This document shows positions 5,871-33,308 of a stretch of 64,000 bases of DNA, in pieces (positions within the stretch are counted from its first letter, which is position 1; each line of letters opens with the position of its first letter). A program made the translations under genes and the position numbers. Where the stretch lies: positions 18,224,848-18,288,847 of the forward strand of contig NC_045141.1 of assembly GCF_008831285.2 (NCBI RefSeq), written 5' to 3'. The DNA is from Nymphaea colorata. Its lineage: Eukaryota; Streptophyta; Magnoliopsida; Nymphaeales; Nymphaeaceae. Under the pieces are notes generated by a model. That model did no database searches and had not been told where the DNA came from. It saw only the letters and a list, made by a program, of their open reading frames with translations.

Positions 5871-6688
5871 ACATATGTAAAAGAGGAGAATGAGTAGAAA
5901 GCGTTTTTCTTTTTCCCAAAAATGAGGAATTTTTTTTTCCAACATCTACTCTGATTTATTTTTCCTCAAACGCACTAGTCAATAGCTTCTTTCCCACTGA
6001 CATTTTTCCTCAAACGCACTAGTCAATAGCTTCTTTCCCACTGACATATGTAAAAGAGGAGAATCAAGAGAAAGTGTGTTTCTTTTTTCCAAAAAATGAG
6101 GATATTTTTTCTCCAACACCTACCTTTGATTTATTTTTCCTCAAACACACTGGTCAATAGCTTCTTTGCCATTGCCATATGTAAAAGAGGAGAATGAGGA
6201 GAAAACGTGTTTCTTTTTTCCAAAAAATGAGGATATTTTTTCTCCAATGCCTACCTCTGATTTATTTTTCCTCAAACACACTGGTCAATAGCTTCTTTCT
6301 CACTACCATATGTAAAAGAGTAGAATGAGGAGAAAGCATGTTTCTTTTTTCTAAAAAATGATATTTTTTCCTTAACGCCTACCTCTGATTTATTTTTCCT
6401 CAAACACACTAGTCAATAGCTTCTTTCCCACTGCCATATGTAAAAGAAGAGAATGAAGAGAAAGCGTGTTTCTTTTTTCTAAAAAATGAGGATATTTTTT
6501 CTCCAACGCCTACCTTTGATTTATTTTTCCTCAAACACACTGGTCAATAGCTTCTTTCCCATTGCCATATGTAAAAGAGGAGAATGAGGAGAAAGAGTGT
6601 TTCTTTTTTGCAAAAGATGAGGATATTTTTTCCCCAATGCCTACCTCTGATTTATTTTTGCTCAAACACACCAGTCAATAGCTTCTTA
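5871..6688. repeat. Minisatellite array, about 131-bp unit, six copies
   Basis: Units begin with CATATGTAAAAGAGGAGAAT at about 5872, 6045, 6176, 6307, 6435 and 6566, giving spacings of 173, 131, 131, 128 and 131 bp. Each unit continues with GAAAG.GTGTTTCTTTTTTCC, a GATTTATTTTTCCTCAAAC block and GTCAATAGCTTCTTTCCCA. The first spacing is longer because a 42-bp piece (TTTTTCCTCAAACGCACTAG onward) is itself doubled at about 5961-6045. Divergence between units is small. No coding frame runs through the array. Confidence 0.9.
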
Positions 6689-19087: not shown

Positions 19088-22000
19088 ATGAAAGATCTCG
19101 GCAACATCTTCAGCGTTCTTAGCTTGGACGTTGGAGACGACAAGGATCAAACGGCCGTTGGCGCGCCTACGGATGCACGGAAGCAGTCAGGTCTGGTATC
19201 GGCTTCATTTATTACGTTCCCTTTTTTCATGATGGGTGTGATTAAACGGATATGGTATCGATCGTATCGAGAGTTCGTTTGGACTTCTCTCCGATTTCTT
19301 TGTTCCTTCTGCAAATGTTAGCGGACCCATACAGGGTTTTGGTAACTATAAAGCCAAGCAGACAACCAAGCGATCAGGTTTAGCTATTGTTGGGTACTGA
19401 ACTCAAATTTAAGTTACCTCATCAGGTGCACTCATGCATCTCTCTAGCTGCTTTCGTGCATGAGGCTTTTCTGTATCTAAGCTTGTTGGGCGCTTGTGCA
19501 ACACTGTTAATGCGTGAATTTATTATAGGCTGCTGCTGAAGCATCCGAGGAGAATGTCATGTGCCCAGCGGTTATGCATGTGAGGGCACCGTTTCTCAAA
19601 TTCGACCTCCAGCGTGTTTTTCTCCTTTTAGGCATTTCTGTGTAGGTTTTTCTATTATCTGGGAGATACATGTTTATCCTTCTCATCTTTTGTTCTATCT
19701 TAGTCAGCACGGCAACCGTCAGCCTGACAACCTCTTTTTGGTTCAATGCAATGGCTTTCTCATTAAAGAACCGGAAATTGTATAAGTTATCTATGGGTAG
19801 TAGGGCAACCAAAATTATTTAATGTGCTCCATGTCCTGGAACGATATAGTTGGCTATGTTCCTATTCGTTTATTTTCTCAAAAATAAGCAAATTATTAGT
19901 AGTAGCCATCATCTACCTGGGAAATTTATAAGATCGATATCTGTGTTGTAAATACAGCATCACCAATCCCATTTTTGGGAGCTCAACGTGTAGACTTTAG
20001 TACTATGTTTTTTAATACATGAACATACAAGTTTAATGGAGATCTTCCGAATTCCCTTTACCTTTTCAAGGAAAAAATTATGCTCCGTTTGATGTTTGGA
20101 TGTCATAATGGTAGTTTCTTTAAAGTTCATGATTGTGGATCAATATTACCTTGCTTGAAGGATCTATATGTTATTTTTTTGGTCAATTTAAAGATGCATA
20201 ACTGCATAGGCAATAAATTTCATTACCTGTACATGGATTTGAGTGGTCCTATGGTGCACATTGAACTGGTTTAGTCTTCATTCGACATGTGGTTCCCTAC
20301 TTTTTCGTGGCTCAACATGTACATATTCTTAGCTTGGTTAGTTTTTTTAGCATAATTTATTGGAATGATAATTGCTATGTGAATTCTGGTACAGGGAAGA
20401 AAAAACCAGTAAACGTGCAGATTTCTGAAGCAGATGAAGAATGCCCACCAGCGGAGGGATCTTCAGAAAGATTCAGGTCACCTCTTGTGTGGATTGACTT
20501 GGAAATGACTGGTAAGAGTTAAGTCCATTTCCAACTAACATAATAGCACTAAATGACGAATTGAGATGTGATCCGCCTTGTGTTTTACGCAACCTGCACT
20601 AGTAACCATATTTATGCCCCTGATACCTTAACACACTAACAAGAAAATGGATGGTTCTAAACTTCTAATGGTGTGTTTGATTGCTATGGTTTAGGAGACC
20701 GACTTGCTAAAAGATCCTCTTCTGCTAATTGTTGTTTTAACTTGACGTATTATGAATGGTTTATAAAAAGCTGCAAGCCATTGTCATGGAAAACTTTTTT
20801 TATTCGAAAAAAGCGAAAAAATGTTAAAAACAAGTTGGCCAAAAAATGGTAAAAAACACATCTTTTGAAAAAAAAACCCAAAACAAAACGAAGTGCGAAA
20901 AAGTGCTTTTATTCTTCTTTTTTTTTGCATTTCTTGAATTTTTTCACTTCATTACATTTTTTAGTGACCAAATTTTTATTTTCACATTTTATTTTAGTTT
21001 TTCTGACTTTTTAAAAATTTGCTGAGATTTTTCCGAAAAAGGTAACTTTGCCATTTTATACCTGAAAACGATATTTGTGACAATGCAGTGAGGTCACATT
21101 TACATGTGAAGTGTAAAAATTACTTTTCTAGATATCTGAATATTTATCTTCTCATGTCTTATTTTGTGGAAGGCTTTAGAAAATTAAAGGACTTGCCCTG
21201 GAAAAGGGATCACAAAGAGAATTTCAGAATAATTATATGAGAGTGAAAGTTTTTAACTATTTCAAATATTTTGTTGTGAATGCATGTTAAAATTTTATAA
21301 AAACAAGATTCTGAAAAAGAAGAATTTCCAGACATTTTTCTTGTGCATAGATATGAAAAATCATAAAAATACACTCAGATGCATTGGCATTACTGAATGA
21401 TGTTTAATAAATTGAAGAAAATAACTTGCTGAAGGTAATAGAGCATTCTTAATGAAATATAACTACAGACTTGAAAACAACAAAAGTCGCAAACAAACTT
21501 TTTTACCATAAACCAACTAGTTCTCAGCCCTGGAACATACAGTCGTACACCCATGAGAGTGTGATAGTGTGGTATTTGGATTCAAAGCATTCCAGCGAAA
21601 TCTTGATTGGGGCCAAGCTTTTGATGCAGTTCACTGGAGATTCTTGCTGTTCTGCTTTCCATAGATGGACTTGTGATTCGTGTTGATGGAATGGTTAAAT
21701 TCTTCCTTGTGTTCTTTTTGTATTGCTCTTGCTACTAATCTACGAATTTCTGTACCAGAATGTTTTCAAAGCATTGGTATTATGACGGGCAGACACAATT
21801 TTTAGTTCAACATACTAATGGAGGGGTGTAGTGCCTTAATAAGGATGGCATTCATGGATGGACAACACTTGCAGGGGTTGAACAAGTTATGCGCTTGCAA
21901 TTTGGAGAGAACACTAAGTGGAGATGAAACTCCACATGGATCTGGTGGTTTGATATGCTATGGCGCTATGCCTGGACAAAAGACAAAAAGTGACCCTAAG

Positions 22001-25000
22001 GAGAGTGGAGTGCATGACAACTGTCATTTAGAATGGTCAATGGATAATAGAAGGGCTCCTAAGAAATTTCTTATGGAACTATAACAGTGAAGAGAAAGAA
22101 ACCTATTTATGGATCAAATGGTATTGCCGACCAAATTGGTGGCTTGAGCAGTAGAGTAATAAAGTATGTTAGTGAGGCACTTCTAGTCAAGTTGTTATGG
22201 GCAATGTTGTCTTAGCTATGATAGATACCATAACTAGATGATGATTGAAATTGTACTCAAGGAGCTAGTTTTGGAATGTAATCTGCCTGCTTCAGGGAAA
22301 ATCCACAAACACTCTCTTGTATTTTATGTTGTGGTGTGTTGCCATGGTGTATATCTTTAATGACACTTCAAGTGCCAAAACTTTTTGGCCCTGAATGAAT
22401 ATCATATATTTAAGGAAAAGTTGCTGGTTGTTTCCAGGTTAAACAAGGGGTGCATTTGTTTTTGCTTTGGTGCATATTTCCTCCTTTACATTTCAAAAAA
22501 ACTTGAAGCGCTTCTGTGGCTATTTAGTAGTTACTGTAATTTGTAAAGATATCTGGTAACTGTTGTCTGGTCAAGTAGTGGGGCTAGGTCAAGTTGTTAA
22601 TCTTTTAATTTCTGGAAAAAGTCCATGCTATTTATAACTTATATTCTACTTCATTGTGAAATTGCTTTTTAATTTTATAGTTGCTATGATTTTTTTTGTG
22701 TATTGTTTTCTTTAGATTCTTCTTATTTTTATAGTTATTTTTGTAAAAAACTGATTTTTCATTTTTCTACGATCACAATTTTGATAAACGTTGTTCATTT
22801 TGTATTATTAAACGAACATTATTAAAGTTAAAGAAAATATGACTAACTTAATAATTGTTCATCATCAAATCACTCTTAAGATCATACCTATAACTAAGGT
22901 TAGGTTACAAAAAAAGAACACATTAATAATTACTTTTAGTGGGTTTGGTTTTTGTCTCTTACCAAACTGGTCTCGTATTTACATTCTCTCTCTATATATA
23001 TACATCTCTCTTTCTCTCTCTCAACATGTATATTTATTTTCTGGATTCCTGAGAAAAACAAACTTTCATCTTATATCTAGGCAAAACCTCAATGATAGAC
23101 AAACCTAATAATGACATTTGTGAGAATCATTACCATCCCGGACAGTTATTTCTATAGGCTTGGACATAAAGTTTCAAAAGCGGCATTTTGTCATAATTTA
23201 GATTTTTTTTTTTGTTCCACCTTTTAAATAAATTATCATTTGGATCACCAAAAATGCCATTCACATCCACTCGTACCAGTAAAATATGCAAATTATAAAG
23301 CAAATAACATGTTAAATGTTAGCCATCAGTTATATGTGTGTTACCTAGTTGAAGGCCCTTATGGCTCCTAACTTCCCATGTCCAACCAACGGACACAAAA
23401 GAGAGCAACTTAATGATATTCTTGACAAAAATTGACTGAAGCTTCCTTTTTTTGTTCGGGAAATATTGTAAAGAACATTCTGTTTCATGATTCCAGTTTT
23501 CATCCATACATTTATTCAATCAGTTTCTAACATTGCATCCTAGCATGTATGTTGGGAAAACGCTAGAAAGCAACTACCTTTTTTTGCCGCTTCATGTGGA
23601 GTTTATTTTACATCAACAAGGCTATTTCATTCTTGTACCATTTACATTTTGGGATTTAATGTGGTGTGTACTTGCTGTTCAGTATAGAAAATTTAAGTGA
23701 AAAATTATTTCACAAAAATTAAACTGTGGCCTAACATGATTTAACCAAAAAATTTGACCAAGTGAGGTGAAACACAGAGTTACCTATATCAGTCAAGAGT
23801 AAAATAACACAAGAATGATTACATATGGTGCAACTGAAATCAAAACTTCTTATAAAATTTTGTTAAAAGATCAAAATAGTTATTAAAATATTAAAGTAAA
23901 ACAGCTTAAAATATAATAGAAGTGTTTTTCAAATCTCACAAAGATCTTGCAATATGATGGCAGTATTTGCAAAATATCATGATAAAATCCTTTTTTCTGG
24001 CAGTAACATCATGATATTTCTAGAAATATCACTGATACTTTCGAAAATGATGGTAACTATACCGTGCCAATTTATAGCTGTCTGATAGTTGAGACCCTTG
24101 CTTCATTTTGTATGTCATGTTTAGTATATTGGTCGGGGCATTTTGAAGTTGATTGAACTTCGATTCTTCTTTTCTTTTCAGTGAAGTATAATCTTCTTGC
24201 TACTTTTCATAGGTTTGAATATTGATGTTGATAGGATTTTGGAGATTGCATGCATTATAACAGATGGGAAATTAACTCATTTGGCTGAGGTAACTTTATT
24301 TCCTTCTTTACTTCTCTCAAATTATAAGAGGAATAAAAAAATCTGTACTGTATATTTCAGATTGTGCTCTATTATTGTTATTATCATTATATATTTATAC
24401 TAAATTTTATATTTTTATGCATGAATTTTGTAATAGTAGCCAGTTATGTCTAATTCAAATACTAGCTTCCAATTTCTAACTTACTTTAGAATTTCGGATC
24501 AGAAAATACATATATATATATATATATATAAATAAAGCCCTAACAACTGCAAGCCTAAAAAGCATGGGCAAGGCTCATATACTACCCTCTCCCTTGAAAC
24601 AGCTGTTGGGCAGTATATATTATGGTTATCTAACCAACCTGTATCCCTTATCCACTTAGTGGAGTTAATCATGTATAATCCATTCAGTGGTGCTTTTAGG
24701 TAGGATCTGGTAGACAATGCTGACCTGATTGTATCATATTTTTATAGAGTTCGGTAGTATATGTGAAGATAAGTGAGCTCATTTCAAGATAGCGTACATG
24801 TCTAGACACAAAAAGATACAGAGGATTCATGAACAATTCTGTTGGCTGTTTGATTAATATGATCAAATTGTTTATATTCTATTAGTAAAGCAATTTTTTC
24901 GAAAGGTAAATGACAAGCATCTTTCTAAGCTGACAGCCTTTGTAATCATCTCAGTTAATAAGTAGAAGACAGTTGACGCCAGCTCGTGTTTCGGGTACTC

Positions 25001-28000
25001 TTTATATAGAACTACTTTTAGCTCCTAGACTGTTTATCCTAGACAGATCCAGATCCTAAAAGATTATTACTATGTACCTATCTTATAAATCTCTTTGAAC
25101 ATCTTGTATTCTAGATACATCCAGACACCATAAAAAAGGCATGCTTGATCATTTTTTTGATGTAATGCAAAAGTTAATAGATGTGGTCATTATGAATTGC
25201 TTGTTATGAACCATTCTTTGGTTCAGATAATCGTATAATGAAACATGGGTTTCGAACATGAACTTTTTTGGTGTTAAATGAACTGTTGATTCTAGTTTGC
25301 TCATTAAGGGCCCTATGCTTGTAAATTTACATATATGTCATATTTTCTCTGCTAAATCAATTACTAGATCATATCTACAAGGTCATTTAAGTAAAAGAAA
25401 GGCATCCAGAACAATATTCAGAAGTTATATTTGGATGTATCTTGGATATGTAGTTTCTCTATCACATTCTCTCCCTCCCTCTCTCTCTCTCTCTCTTTAT
25501 ATAAATACATATGCATGTGTGCATAGTGTCATAAGGACAGTTATTTAAATCTGGGGTCCATAGTTGTCATGATGAGGGACACGAGCAGATATGGTGTACA
25601 AGAGAGTAAGGAGACATTTTACTGATACAGGTGTTGACCAATCAGGATGCAGTTAACCTTGGCCTTGTATTATGGTTTAAAAGCCAACTTTTTTACATTG
25701 AAAAATAAAGAACAAATTGATAAAAAAGGCACATGCTCTTAACATTTTTATCTTTTCCCCTAACTTGGAGAGACTGTGCACAGCATCCTCTCTGTCTTCA
25801 TCAATCTCATCACTCTCTCTCTGTCATATGCCCCCTCCCCCCAACGCGCACAGAGGAACTTACAGTTTATCTCTTTTAACTGAACATCCACTCCCTTTCT
25901 CCTCTTTCAAGTTTCAACCTACGCTTAGTTTGAGTTCATTGAGAACATGAACTTTTGAAAATATGCTTTATAATAAAATAATAGAGTATGTATATACACA
26001 CAAAAAAGCCATATATGATATATGTTGAAGAGACATTCATATTGATTTTAAATCTCTTCTGAAAGTCATAGTGCTCTCTATGGTCACACTCTTGTACTTT
26101 ATGACAAATAATGACAAATAATTATTATTATCTGTATATTTATATGTACTATATACATGCAGACACAACAATGCAAACATATCTTGAATGATCAAGTATT
26201 TTCTTTTCAAATTTGTAGTGTTCCCTATGTGCACACTCTTGTTTATTTGTGACACATACATGCATGTTTGTAAAAGTATGTATGGACACATGTTTGCTAC
26301 GCATGCGTCTCTAGCATTTGCATTTGTTTCCAACAATTTTCTGCAAGTCTTCATTTTCTAAGTACTTAATGTCTAAGCTTTGTACCTTTGAGCAGTGGAA
26401 AAGTGTATTTTTTGCAAGTGCACCAGATCAAACTTGGCTTGCATGGCTTGGGTTTGTTTTATGTGTTTGGACTTTGGGTTGGCTTCACTTGCCACAAGAA
26501 CGGCTGCATGTTGATCATCCTTTGTTCATTTCATTCGACCTTCTTAATATCCCTGCTTTTAACTAATTGCTCGGCTCGACGGCTCCTAAGTTCTGTACTT
26601 ATGTTTACATCAATCTAATTATATGTTTGTGTGCATCTTGTGGATTTTGTTTATTTTAAGTTAAAGTGCATCTATTTTTTCCTTTTCAGGGTCCAGACTT
26701 GATAATCCACCAGTCAAAGGAATGCCTTGATAACATGGGAGAGTGGTGTCAGAACCATCATTCTGCAAGTGGTATGCCTTGGCTTGATCTCAGCTAATAT
26801 ATATGGACTCTGTTTGGGGCTGCACACAATAGTCCAGCTGAGCTATGTTCGAGCTTGGCTTCAGTCCTAAATGCCTTGGGCCTTGGCAGAAGCTTGGCTT
26901 CACGGAGCTGAACATTTCTCAAGCTCGGGTTGATCTTGGCTTGACTGAGCCTGAGATAAGCTGGTTTTGAGAAAAAATTGAATTTTTTGGCGACAGATGT
27001 ACTAAGACAGCATCGATATAGGATTTTGAAGCCGAAACTCCTTCCATGAAGGGAGAGGGAAGGCACCAAATTTTCACAAGAAATTATCTATTTATAATCT
27101 TAAAGAGACTATTTGAGCTTAGACGAGCTTTTACAGGGAACTTGAGATTGAAACATTAAATATTTGAGCTTATTTTATTGGCACCTGACTCTTTTGTCAT
27201 ATAAATCTTGTTCAAGCCAAGCTTAATCGGCTCAAGCCTGAGTTGAGTTCAAATTCGTTGCCCACCCCTGAGATCTGCTTAATGGTCCTGTTTTCAATAT
27301 TTATGTAACACATGAGATACATGACCTGTTTGTTTACCTGATATATGTTAGTTATGTGTTACTGGGTTTCTAGGGTTGACAGAGAAGGTGCTCGCCAGCA
27401 CTGTTACTGAAGCAGATGCTGAGACACAGGTTAGTTCTTTGATTTCTAACCATGAAGAGATTAATTAAAAAATTTATTTTTGCTACTGATGTGGTACACA
27501 GATATTTGAAGATCTTTAGTTTCTGCTCTTATAGCATTCCTTTTGTCTACTCAGATTGAGAAAAGAATTCTCATGCTATTTGGCATCTGATAATTTGCTA
27601 ATACTGTAAATATGTATTGAGATTTTTTAGTTTAATGATTTCATTGGTTCATAATCTAGTACCATGTACAGTATAGCCGAAGCAAGCAGAGAATGTGCTC
27701 TCTAAGTGAAAGATGAAAAACGAAACATGCTAAAAAATATTGGTTATTTCTTCTTTTGTATTTACTTTGTATGTCTTACCTTCTCAATGACATTCACTTT
27801 GAACTTATAGTAAGTGGATTCTGTAGGTGATAGATTTTCTTAAAAGTCATATTGGAGGCAGTTATCAGCCAATGTTGGCTGGCAATTCCATTTACGTTGA
27901 CTTCGAATTTCTCAAGGTAAAATTATTTCTATGTTTTCATTTTTTCTTTTTGCACCTTATCAAGTTTAGAGATCCGGTATCAAAGTTTGTGTGAGATGGT

Positions 28001-31000
28001 CAACTGATGGTATCAACTTTGTCTATTTTCTGTTAATTATGGGGATGAATCTACAACTAGTGTTAGGTTTTCTTTTAAGATCTATTACGTTGGTCACCTA
28101 GTAACAAGGCACATTCAGTCATACTTAAAATGTAAAAAATTTAGAAACATGAGTAGCAATGTAAATAAAAATTAGACAAGCTTTACAAAACACAGTAAAG
28201 GGAAAATAAGCAACTTTTGGACTTTTTGAGCATATGCACATGCAATTGTAAATCATGCAAGTTGTAATAAACTTACACTGTTCAAGTTATGACTAATTAA
28301 TTGACAAGCAACCGGGCACTAATTAAACACAAGCCTGTGTGCATATTTGTGTTTACTTGTGCATCTAGATCATGACTTCACATCAGATAACATAAAAAAA
28401 ATTGACATGAAGATAAAATGTGAAGACAAAAGTAAAAGCGAAACATAATTTCTGAATATCTAACTCTACACTAGTTGTCAAACTATTACTCTAAATGGTA
28501 AATTGTATAAGCTGGAAACCAAATTGAGGAGATAATTAGCTTATAAATCCTAAGACATTCATTAGCTACTTGTTTTAATTGTTTTGTCACAAACAATAGA
28601 GCTTTCTCTGGCTAGGGGGTGTGAGATGGGTGGTGAAGGTTATGACAATGGTGTTAATGGGCGAGGATTGCTGGCAGTGCTCAATGTCACTACAATCATC
28701 TTCATTTCTATAGATGGATTTGTCTACTGGAAGAAGTATTTTTATACCAAGGGAATTAGGGAATGCTCTCTATATGATATGGAATAACTGGAGTTCAGGT
28801 CTCTTATGTAAACCCATGGCTCTTGTTTTTGTAAGTTCTGAAGCATGTGGCATATCCACCATGATGACGTCTATGATGCATAAATAGAGAGCATGGCATC
28901 TAGAGGCAAAATTGCACTTGAACTTATACATACCTTAGGGAATAAGTTTATGACAAAGATACATCTTACCATATGCTTAATGCTTATTTGAAGATGGTTC
29001 ACACTTTGCACTGTCACAAACGACCATTATTTCTACCTGCCATTGACAAATATAAACAGAAAACATAGAAGAGTTATGTAATTTGGTCTTAGAAATAGTT
29101 ATCAACTTCTACGATTTGGACTTAAGGTTTAGAGGCCAAAAGAAAAGAGCGGAAAAGATACTAAATTGGATCTTTGATAGCTCACTGTTGCAAAAAATCC
29201 TAGCTTTTTTGGGTTGATGTGGTTTCATAAAGAAGAATGTAGAAAGCAAGAGACACAGTTTGAGATAAAAGAAGATAAAGTCGTAAAAAACTCATGAGGA
29301 GTATAACATTGGCCATACCCTAAAATAAAAAAAATACACAAAGTTCTCTTTCGAAGTTAAAAAAAAAAATCTACCTGTAATGTTTTGATAGTATCAGCTT
29401 ATTTGAGTTAACATCTGTTGAACCACATTTGTCCATATTTTTTTCATTCATTTCATCATTGTATGGTAACTAGTAACTATTGTCTGATTTCATATTATTG
29501 ATTGTTGATGGTGTTCCAAGTATGATTTCAACATCTGCATGATCTCATTGTGCATGTTTTTTCAGAAATATATGCTTGATTTGGCTTCTATTTTCTCTCA
29601 TGTGCTTGTCAAGTATGACTTTAACATCTGCATGATCTCATCGTGCATGTTCTTTCAGAAATACATGCCTGATTTGGCTGCTATGTTCTCTCACGTGCTT
29701 GTTGATGTTAGCAGCGTGAATGCATTGTGCTTTCGTTGGTATCCTAAAGGTACAAACCTCCATACTCTCTTTATGACAACGGTTACTCTTTTCTAACATT
29801 GATATTAGCACCTGTTATACATTAAATTTGAAGCTGTCAATCCTTGTTATATGTTAAACGTGGTGGTTGAATAACTTTCTCTTGATAAGCTTCATGTGGG
29901 ACAGTTGCAAATTTTTCGCATCCTTGGGATATGATCATATGAAACAAAACCGTCTAATGCTCTTTACATATTATGCAGTAATTGGTTAAATGACTCTTAA
30001 ACTGCTATAAACAGACAGTGTGAGCCATTTGTCAGCAACTTTTTGGTAGTATTCCTTATCTTTGGGGTTTCCCTCCTACCGCTTTTATTGCCGCTAATCG
30101 TGCCATGCAATTATTTTTCCCTTTTTTTGGAGTAGGAAAACACGATTTTATAACAAACAATACAAACAGCATTATATCCTATCCAACCAAAAAAGGAACT
30201 TATGAAATGACGCATCTATGTTTGAAGATGTTTCATTGAGGGGATTTAATCTGCCAAGAAGTGCTCCATCGACCTGTCTAAGAAGTTGGACTTCAGGCTG
30301 GAATGTTGGTCTCTATGTGGCTGTTTCTGGAGGGAGTATTTTAAAGTACCAAAGACATAATTGAAGAGTTTGAGATGCTTTAACTTTTCTCCATATGCAG
30401 TTCAATATCATCAGCTTAGAGGGACCTGGAGAATTTAACCTTTCCGCAATCACTACAATTTTCTTGTGGTGGAAATCCATAATTTCTCTATAGAGAGCGA
30501 GAGAGAGAGATGATAATCCTCAATCAGTGAGCAGGGCAAATAATTTTTAGTTATTTGTTTTCTTTCTTAAGTTTATTGAGGGATATGTGATTACCTGCTG
30601 GCTGTTCAAAGAATTGCATTGCTGTTGATGTTTTCTTCATCTTATGTATTTAAATCTGTTTTGCCATTGCCTTTATTTCTAGTGATTGGATCTGCTGCGT
30701 TCATACTTTATAACCTTAATTTTTTTATATCAGTTGCCTTTGTCTGTATGATTTATTATTTCGATGTAACTACCATCATTGCTACCTAAAGTAACATGGG
30801 GTTGACGTATATCTATTGATGCGTTCCACCGTTATTATTACTGCCATGAAAGTATTTGCCTATAGTTATAAATCTCTTTCCTTTCTGAATCTATGAATAT
30901 GATTTTGTTCAGAAAGTTGTGTGCAAGACTCCGTCGTTCCTATGGATTGAGTTTTATTTACGTCAATGACCAAGTCTTGCTTCTCATTTTTCTTCAATGT

Positions 31001-31161
31001 TAATTGATTGCATGACAAATTGTTTTTGTTCTGTTTGTTTCTCAGAGTATCGGAAGGCACCTAGAAAGCAAAAGAAGCATAGGGCCATGGACGACATAAA
31101 GGAAAGCATAATGGAACTGAGATACTTTAAACAGAATATTTTTAAAGGATCTAAGAAGTGA
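19088..31161 (+). CDS. ORN: Oligoribonuclease, DEDDh 3'-5' exoribonuclease
   Basis: Degrades 2-5 nt RNA fragments to mononucleotides, completing RNA decay; plant members are reported in organelles and cytoplasm. Eight exons: 19088-19190, 20395-20511, 24213-24289, 26690-26771, 27374-27429, 27827-27916, 29659-29749, 31046-31161. All junctions are GT-AG and the phases join without conflict to give 243 residues. Catalytic residues of the DEDDh family are all present: Asp69 and Glu71 in WIDLEMTG, Asp170 in GNSIYVDFEFL, His217 and Asp222 in HRAMDDIKES. Other family blocks are DRILEIACIITDG, WCQNHH and DVSSVNALCFRW. The N-terminal 60 residues are poorly conserved, as usual. The start MKDLGNIFSVLSLDV matches plant homologues; an in-frame ATG at 18953 would add 45 residues and could encode a targeting extension. 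Intron 6 ends in a 93-bp tandem duplication containing a second copy of the acceptor (see the repeat at 29518-29703). Confidence 0.93.
19191..20394 (+). other. Oligoribonuclease intron 1
   Basis: Donor CAG|GTCTGG, acceptor GGTACAG|GG. AT-rich; short open frames inside show no family resemblance. I see no element. Confidence 0.6.
20512..24212 (+). other. Oligoribonuclease intron 2 (3.7 kb)
   Basis: Donor ACTG|GTAAGA, acceptor TTTTCATAG|GT. At about 20790-21060 an A-rich block (GCGAAAAAATGTTAAAAACA and relatives) is followed by a T-rich block of complementary character, which looks like the two arms of a decayed inverted-repeat element. The rest is AT-rich. The plus-strand open frame at 21818-22084 has no recognisable features. 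Confidence 0.5.
24290..26689 (+). other. Oligoribonuclease intron 3 (2.4 kb)
   Basis: Acceptor CCTTTTCAG|GGT. Contains a TA run at about 24510-24531 and a CT-rich run near 25470-25498. No gene or clear element seen. Confidence 0.55.
26812..27272. mobile_element. Probable non-autonomous DNA element in oligoribonuclease intron 4
   Basis: This segment of the 602-bp intron carries repeated AGCTTGGCTT, GAGCTGAAC, CTCAAGCTCG motifs and ends ...GTTGCCCACCCCTGAG, resembling the common plant element terminus CAGGGGTGGGCAAC read backwards. The left end GGGGCTGCACACAA is only loosely inverted to it. No coding frame. Assignment rests on general resemblance. Confidence 0.35.
27917..29517 (+). other. Oligoribonuclease intron 6, unduplicated part
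   Basis: Donor AAG|GTAAAA. AT-rich intron sequence without a recognisable element; the intron continues into the duplicated acceptor region. Confidence 0.55.
29518..29703 (+). repeat. 93-bp tandem duplication spanning intron end and start of exon 7
   Basis: Two head-to-tail copies (29518-29610 and 29611-29703), about 89 percent identical (10 differences by eye). Each contains the end of intron 6, a polypyrimidine tract, a CAG acceptor (29563-29565 and 29656-29658) and the first 15 codons of exon 7 (KYMLDLASIFSHVLV in the first, KYMPDLAAMFSHVLV in the second). The second copy matches the family better and is used in the model. Because 93 is a multiple of three and neither copy has a stop in this frame, use of the first acceptor would insert 31 residues in frame between catalytic Asp170 and His217. 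Confidence 0.92.
29750..31045 (+). other. Oligoribonuclease intron 7
   Basis: Donor AAAG|GTACAA, acceptor TTTCTCAG|AG. A short GAGA run at about 30495-30512. No gene or element recognised. Confidence 0.55.
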
Positions 31162-33308
31162 CAGTACTTACTACCATACTGTTCCTTTTGTCTTAGTTAT
31201 TCTTACAAATGGCTAATATCGCAACTACTAATGATGCTGTGATTATGTCGACTACTAAATGATGCTATCAGCAATCATTGTCAAAGTTGATGATTAATGC
31301 TCTCTGTTTCAGTTTGGTTGTGTCTAGAGGTTTGGCTTTTATTTACCTCGAATCTACATGTTGGCTTTTATTATCTTTACATGGATAGATATTAAATCTT
31401 TGTAATCCACACAACCGCTGTGCCAGGAGACCTCCGCCGGTTTTTTTTTACATAAAAAATGTCTCTTCCGTGTACACTCAGTACGCTGACTTTCAAGCTA
31501 TATCGTGTAGCTACTCACATTGCATGGTTCAATATGAACAGACTATGATCCTAATGTGCATACACACTTGCGCGTGCACACTCAGTGCCGACAGTTGTTT
31601 AGCTTGCTGAGCTGTCCGGCTTCATACAGGTGGAAAAATATTAGTCGGTGGGCAGCTTATTATTTGTTCAAACTTCATAGTTCATATAGTCATATAGTCA
31701 CTTGGAGGTTTAAGCAGGATTGCAAATACTGGAGAGCATGATACACTAGTTGATGGGCATATTGTTTCTTGTCTAAGCCCCAAAGAGCATGATAATCTAG
31801 TTGATGGGTGTATGGTTTCTTGTCTAAGCCCCAAAGCATCTTTGGGTCTGGGAACCAAGGAGAAGGAGAAGAAGCCTTGGCTTCTTGTGCCAATTGGTTC
31901 TTGGAGGGTTAAACAGGCCATTATCCCAAAGTTGTATGTCATCAGGAAGTGATTGCAGATATGACAGTTTAAACTCAGTTTGCTAGAACCTTAGAAGTCC
32001 ATCTATAAACTTACGAGATTTATCGGCATGCTTGGCACATAGTCAAGCTTAATTCCTTCTCAAAATCACTCTCCAATATTTTAAACACTAATTTCATTTT
32101 ATTGTGAAGAAGAGAATTACTGGACTGCATGACATGGGGAAGAAAATGTGATTCCACAATCTTGAAAGAAATCTAGTCTCTCCCTCCACCAGCTTATTTT
32201 GTAAAAGTTCACCAAGCTCCAAGCCACCCGTATGAATGATTGTTTACATTGGTAAAAAGCAAAACGATGCACTTTCTACTGGAGGGTGGGCGATGGGTCC
32301 GAGCAGCCCAACCTGAGCAGCCGAACTGACCAAAGGTTGGTTCATTTTCAAAGCCTTACAGACCCAGTATATATGGGTTCAGGCTGGTGGGGTTCAACTT
32401 CCTTGGTTTGCAATGTTGGGACAGGGTGCTTTGTTTGCCACTAATGGCCGGGAAACTGAAGACACCTTTGAGACGATCACTTGGGGGGACCATTTCATGA
32501 GACGATCTTATATACACTCTGCCTTTTTCAGCATTCATTTTGAGTTTTTAAATCTAAAGAAAGAATTCCTTTCTTAAAAGAAAAAGAAATGAAAATGAAA
32601 GCCTTCAAGGCGACTCAATGGGTTGCCTCTTTGAAAGGACAAAGCCACAGCCACTCAAATAATTTTGTTAAGATTCTTTTTCTCATTCTCAATGGCCAAT
32701 ATTCTTGAAATTCTTGTCGCAGCAAACTATTGGAGTCTAACCAATGGCTTGGTTTGATTGGCGAAGAAATTTTTCTTGAATCAAGCTAAGCCAAATTGAA
32801 ACAAAGCAAAATTCAGTTTTTTTGTTTTCGAGAACCTGAAGCTTGGCAGATTCAAACTTGGTTATTCGATGTAGGTGTCCAAGTTATATCAATGTAATAT
32901 GATGGTCCCGTGGCAAGCAACTTTGAACTGGTTCTACTTTGCTGCTCAAGAAAGTGCAACTATGCGAGATTGGCCTCAGATGAAATGCATGGTGAAAGAG
33001 AAAGTTGTCTGTGGAGAGTCTGATCACAACTGTGGTTGGTTTAATTTCTCTCTCGCCCAACATCTAGGATTTCGACACTTCACCCCGTTGAGCAGAACCA
33101 AGAGCGAGGAAGTAATATGCCATCGAGTTTTGTTGAATTGCATCAGATTGATAGTTACAGATTACGAGTTGCAGTTAACATCAACGAATTAAAAATAGAA
33201 GTGAACAAGCCAAAGTGCAAGCATGAACATGGAAGACAACAAAGAAAAATGAGACGTTGGGTCAACCCACATTTGAAAGATGGTAGGGTCAAAAAAGACG
33301 TTGGATGA
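31162..33308. other. Intergenic region downstream of oligoribonuclease
   Basis: A 51-bp unit (GAGCATGATA..CTAGTTGATG..TTTCTTGTCTAAGCCCCAAA) is tandemly doubled at 31734-31836. Otherwise AT-rich; the plus-strand open frame at 32875-33192 shows nothing familiar. Confidence 0.5.

Follow-up and report, generated by a model that had tools for sequence, protein, structure and literature searches.

A tandemly duplicated splice acceptor in an oligoribonuclease-like gene of Nymphaea colorata

An extra splice acceptor in the CYP4B1 gene of apes reportedly adds residues to the protein in frame. The gain of this additional acceptor in evolution has been described (PMC4565547), and the Nymphaea gene considered here resembles CYP4B1 in that an additional acceptor lies beside the normal one. 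It differs in that the entire 3' splice region was copied by a duplication of 93 bp, something not reported for CYP4B1 in the available text of that study, and in that the use of the additional acceptor is putative in Nymphaea. A second comparison is provided by tandem exon duplication with alternative splicing, which, according to the available portions of two accounts (PMC9013439, PMC9741552), likewise combines a tandem exonic copy with a splice signal in one gene. In the Nymphaea gene, however, only 44 nt of exon 7 were copied, without a donor, resulting in a choice between acceptors rather than between exons. Thirdly, intron gain by tandem duplication of a sequence with a proto-splice site also supplies an additional splice site, with the possibility that one of the copies becomes intronic (PMC2891723, in the part available), whereas here no new intron is apparent and the existing intron gains a second end. 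None of the matching titles listed in our literature search on duplicated acceptors describes this case. The locus is a fresh example of an already known kind of event. If the additional acceptor is used, it offers a dated natural test of competition between near-identical acceptors in a plant, with a single branch-point difference as the candidate decider. If it is not used, it shows a gene tolerating a copied splice site.

The gene and its duplicated acceptor

The window is a stretch of 64,000 nt (C4:18224848-18288847) from C4, a contig of 27.7 Mb. It contains an oligoribonuclease-like gene, the exon junctions of which were set by eye on splice motifs. The features relevant to the duplication are as follows:

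19088..31161, + strand: oligoribonuclease-like gene, with coding exons 19088-19190, 20395-20511, 24213-24289, 26690-26771, 27374-27429, 27827-27916, 29659-29749 and 31046-31161
29517..29609, + strand: copy 1 of the 93-bp tandem duplication (intron end, acceptor and start of exon 7), from TRF and exact comparison
29610..29702, + strand: copy 2 of the 93-bp duplication, with the normal acceptor, from TRF and exact comparison
29564..29565, + strand: AG of the upstream (extra) acceptor, from which the exon would start at 29566; from sequence comparison and translation
29657..29658, + strand: AG of the downstream (normal) acceptor, exon 7 starting at 29659; from translation and a one-stretch alignment to solved oligoribonucleases
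29566..29658, + strand: 93 nt (31 codons) that the upstream acceptor would add in frame, from translation

Through the acceptor 29658|29659, the eight coding exons translate into a protein of 243 aa. This product matched the NF003765 profile with 225.5 bits, compared with a curated cut-off of 106, and it also matched PF00929. Its DEDDh residues are D69, E71, D170, H217, and D222. The last three were each found as the same residue in 78 of the 80 rows of an alignment of prokaryotic relatives, for which 80 sequences were kept of 563 and in which 2 rows are partly gapped around the stretch concerned by the insertion. Judged by its sequence, the 243-aa protein is an oligoribonuclease homologue; we do not claim that it is a dedicated dinuclease.

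A protein search of the whole assembly (407.8 Mb, 783 contigs) recovered the gene exon by exon on C4 and found no second plant copy able to buffer it, the other matches being only 35-41% identical and located on contigs C248 and C250. These two were rejected as plant copies, each carrying an in-frame TAA or TAG and being read as ciliate-like. A search of the assembly with PF00929 did not return the window gene itself among the matches listed; since the exons of this gene are short and it is omitted, that search says little about plant copies. No relative was present in any of nine candidate stretches among the viral contigs, and an Arabidopsis gene sought by locus number in the literature was not found.

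The sequence-only reading had proposed a 93-bp tandem duplication of the end of intron 6, its acceptor, and the start of exon 7, which was confirmed by TRF (29517-29702, period 93, 2.0 copies, 90% matches, 0 indels) and by exact comparison. The register that it gave, 29518-29703, was one base off, as the bases flanking the true interval 29517-29702 mismatch on both the left and the right. This shift also explains its estimate of 89% identity; direct comparison gave 84 of 93 positions (90.3%). Each unit joins 49 nt from the 3' end of intron 6, CAG acceptor included, to 44 nt from the start of exon 7, which correspond to 14 codons and 2 nt and not quite to the 15 codons suggested. Within 27917-31045, the best count of matches at a lag of 93 was 84, whereas 1000 single-base shuffles reached no more than 46. 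Searched as DNA against the assembly, the duplicated stretch gave one listed match, that is, at least one occurrence.

Assembly errors are frequent at tandem repeats, and small ciliate-like contaminant contigs are present in this assembly. An assembly or collapse artefact is nevertheless extremely improbable. A read error that was duplicated would not explain the 9 mismatches among the 93 sites of the two copies, and the unit is short enough to be spanned by one long read.

Signals at the two acceptors

Both acceptors are intact, with identical cores (TTTCAG|AAA), and the 93 nt between them stay in frame without a stop, as had been claimed. A single donor, 27916|27917, lies upstream of both, which is the arrangement of an alternative 3' splice site. 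No other AG occurs for about 45 nt upstream of either acceptor. A motif scan yielded three candidate branch points of putative function:

29544..29548, + strand: CTCAT of copy 1, starting 22 nt before the exon
29637..29641, + strand: CTCAT of copy 2, starting 22 nt before the exon
29621..29625, + strand: TTAAC, a second candidate in copy 2 only

The TTAAC motif sits 38 nt before the exon, and its equivalent in copy 1 reads TCAAC. It arises from the sole difference between the copies at which copy 2 has a T. Over the 17 positions from -20 to -4, copy 1 contains 10 U compared with 8 U in copy 2, with pyrimidines at 12 of 17 positions in each.

These signals bear on the question of whether the acceptor has moved, i.e., whether the upstream site is now the main one and the plant enzyme normally carries the 31 additional residues. 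The upstream site is met first after a long intron and has two more U in its tract. Its score in a crude acceptor matrix is also higher (5.4 versus 1.96 for the downstream site), although the matrix was built from only the six other acceptors of the gene, which is too little data. Two further AGs within intron 6 rank higher than either acceptor, and the normal site is outscored by at least seven AGs of the region in addition to the upstream one. Because of the two intron 6 AGs, the matrix decides little between the acceptors, and ranking them by it was rejected. Scanning models favour the first AG after the branch point, but a preference for the distal AG has been reported in many cases (both in the available text of PMC2875228). 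Since a separate candidate branch point precedes each of the two acceptors, the first-AG rule does not decide here, and copy 2 adds TTAAC. The conserved protein sequence, moreover, is kept by the downstream copy. On balance, we consider a moved acceptor unlikely.

A cassette exon derived from copy 1 was also rejected. The best donor-like site between the acceptors, CAA|GTATGA at 29613, would give a 47-nt exon, a 46-nt intron, and a frame shift. An intron of 46 nt is below the minimum length of plant introns. The remaining GTs between the acceptors would leave introns of 57, 51, 16, and 10 nt. From those at 29602 and 29608, exons of 36 and 42 nt would result, in frame and paired with the introns of 57 and 51 nt, respectively, but both were rejected due to poor donor context.

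The predicted longer product and the phosphate cap

Joining through the acceptor 29565|29566 would produce a protein of 274 aa with an open frame, in which H217 of the normal form becomes H248. Translation thus upheld the claim of two predicted products, of 243 and 274 aa, the longer one having 31 more residues between D170 and H217. The long form matched NF003765 with 220.9 bits, split into two stretches, and PF00929 likewise in two stretches. All 24 solved sequences listed at an E value of 0.001 matched the normal form in one stretch and the long form in two. None of the 80 aligned prokaryotic relatives carries additional residues behind any position from 164 to 206.

To place the additional residues, the modelled structure of a bacterial relative (L017; alignment A1 of 22 sequences; pLDDT 94.4) served as the structural reference, in which plant D170 corresponds to D105 according to alignment columns without insertions. 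The intron position (between 110 and 111 in the model) lies close to where helix 102-112, the carrier of D105, ends. The duplicated stretch corresponds to model residues 111-125, covering the end of this helix, helix 114-119 in full, and the larger part of strand 124-126. As the 31 added residues repeat adjoining sequence, their position is not fixed and can lie anywhere between 111 and 125. In the modelled relative, the mildest site would be the loop 120-123, which holds the equivalents of Y129 and R130 of Vibrio Orn. With 31 residues in or next to core structure, the 274-aa form is probably weak or inactive.

In Vibrio numbering, S108, Y129, R130, and S135 form the phosphate cap. According to the available text of PMC6613908, this cap is strict in Orn homologues, Y129 is contributed by the partner subunit, and the R130A substitution abolishes activity. 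The plant protein has kept both cap serines (S166 and S193). Where the prokaryotic relatives carry the cap Tyr (78 of 80 rows, with gaps in the other 2) and the cap Arg (76 of 80 rows, with His in 2 and gaps in 2), it has H187 and V188, respectively:

29689..29697: residues S186-H187-V188, with the cap Tyr and Arg replaced

The HYR motif is present in the human enzyme and in the ciliate-like gene on C250. The Arabidopsis protein is not known to have the cap Tyr and Arg. From these residues, the plant protein may not be a dedicated dinuclease. The missing cap may matter more than the duplication, as residues that mark the dinucleotide enzyme would not be universal if plants lack them. One could further imagine that a plant oligoribonuclease without the cap, combined with a duplication-born 31-residue isoform beside the cap and dimer interface, allows acceptor choice to tune which RNA fragments are degraded; this is a highly speculative idea and very unlikely to be correct. 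Separately, F171 of the plant protein stands where 75 of 80 relatives have R.

Divergence, chance survival and use of the upstream acceptor

The nine differences between the copies are evenly spread, 4 among 49 intronic and 5 among 44 exonic nt (p 0.73). Copy 1 has T at eight of the nine differing sites (two-sided p 0.039), a weak bias that no outgroup polarises and for which the test was chosen after looking. These T-rich changes suggest that copy 1 drifts as a U-rich plant intron. Three of the five exonic differences change a residue. Among these is P179, which is L in copy 1. Proline occupies this position in 73 of the 80 prokaryotic relatives, where L is outside the five commonest letters. 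The Jukes-Cantor distance between the copies is 0.104. At the rate of 6.5e-9 per site and year used for dating, this corresponds to an age of about 8 million years (3.6-15 from sampling error alone), and at 2e-9 to 26 million years.

The survival of the frame and of the upstream acceptor in a duplication that is not brand new had been read as a possible hint of maintenance. In 40,000 simulation runs, nine random changes were introduced into copy 1, starting from the sequence of copy 2. The insert stayed open in 95.5% of the runs, the AG was kept in 81%, and both survived in 78%. Both survived in 87% of the runs with five hits and in 71% with twelve, and when all nine hits fell inside the 93-nt insert, it was open in 81%. 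Since chance gives both outcomes in about 78% of simulations, this survival was rejected as evidence of function. Duplications of this kind are also common. Using thresholds of a unit of at least 30 bp and fewer than 2.6 copies, TRF returned 26 two-copy rows in 263,900 bases, drawn solely from the window plus 20 stretches of C4, including two overlapping pairs and the studied duplication itself; 9 of the 26 units were divisible by three. A rough genome-wide estimate, which assumes 3-5 introns per gene and in which one period was entered as 77 for 68 (an effect of about 1%), gave about 280-460 duplications with units of 60-150 spanning an acceptor if none were selected away. Chance survival, together with the commonness of such duplications, makes the anatomy of the locus unsurprising.

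The intactness of both acceptors, of the candidate branch points, and of the frame would also be compatible with a useful alternative isoform, in which acceptor choice between the 243- and 274-aa products adds 31 residues next to the dimer interface and the substrate pocket and thereby changes activity, substrate, or partner. In the model, these residues could sit at the loop 120-123, beside residues that in Vibrio Orn extend into the active site of the partner subunit (available text of PMC6613908). Such intactness, however, is what chance leads one to expect; the aligned relatives provide no precedent for an insertion there (0 of 80), and copy 1 encodes leucine at the position of the widely shared proline (73 of 80). 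An isoform with a useful role is, in our judgment, improbable. Nothing beyond chance shows purpose-driven upkeep of the longer form, and the case for maintenance is not made.

The opposite reading, a silent relic whose upstream acceptor is never used through its context or the missing second branch point, agrees with the apparent drift of copy 1 and with its lack of TTAAC. Against it stands the upstream acceptor core, nearly identical to the working one, and we regard complete silence as quite improbable.

We favour, with a probability of roughly 0.62, an old and roughly neutral duplication in which the downstream acceptor is still the main one and the upstream acceptor probably leaks an extended product that works poorly. 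The duplication probably arose by replication slippage or end joining, which copied a working acceptor along with its branch-point region, and it would since have persisted, about neutral, for some millions of years, with copy 1 presumably drifting as intron. The spliceosome would mostly still join 27916 to 29659, because the protein sequence is conserved, copy 1 appears to drift, and TTAAC is confined to copy 2. Since copy 1 has retained a similarly built acceptor, the upstream site probably leaks some of the longer form, in transcripts that join 27916 to 29566 and would encode the 274-aa protein. It should be noted that the upstream acceptor, being U-richer, higher-scoring, and the first one met, might be used often or mostly. 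It would also be odd for a damaging form to be made often and yet last for millions of years in the sole such intron-bearing gene found.

Several minor observations were made in the window and the assembly. The exonuclease matches L102 (C166), L113 (C250), and L114 (C248), all on small contigs, carry in-frame TAA or TAG. Under code table 6, open frames were present on C166 (418 aa, containing both matches) and C250 (186 aa), and on C248 no frame of at least 150 aa covered the match. The three contigs look like ciliate contamination in the plant assembly. In the window, TRF reported a 131-bp tandem array of 5.3 copies at 5958-6687, the left edge of which carries an exact 44-bp tandem repeat. 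A two-copy 51-bp tandem duplication with 90% matches, similar in divergence to the 93-bp unit, was found at 31733-31836, just behind the same gene.
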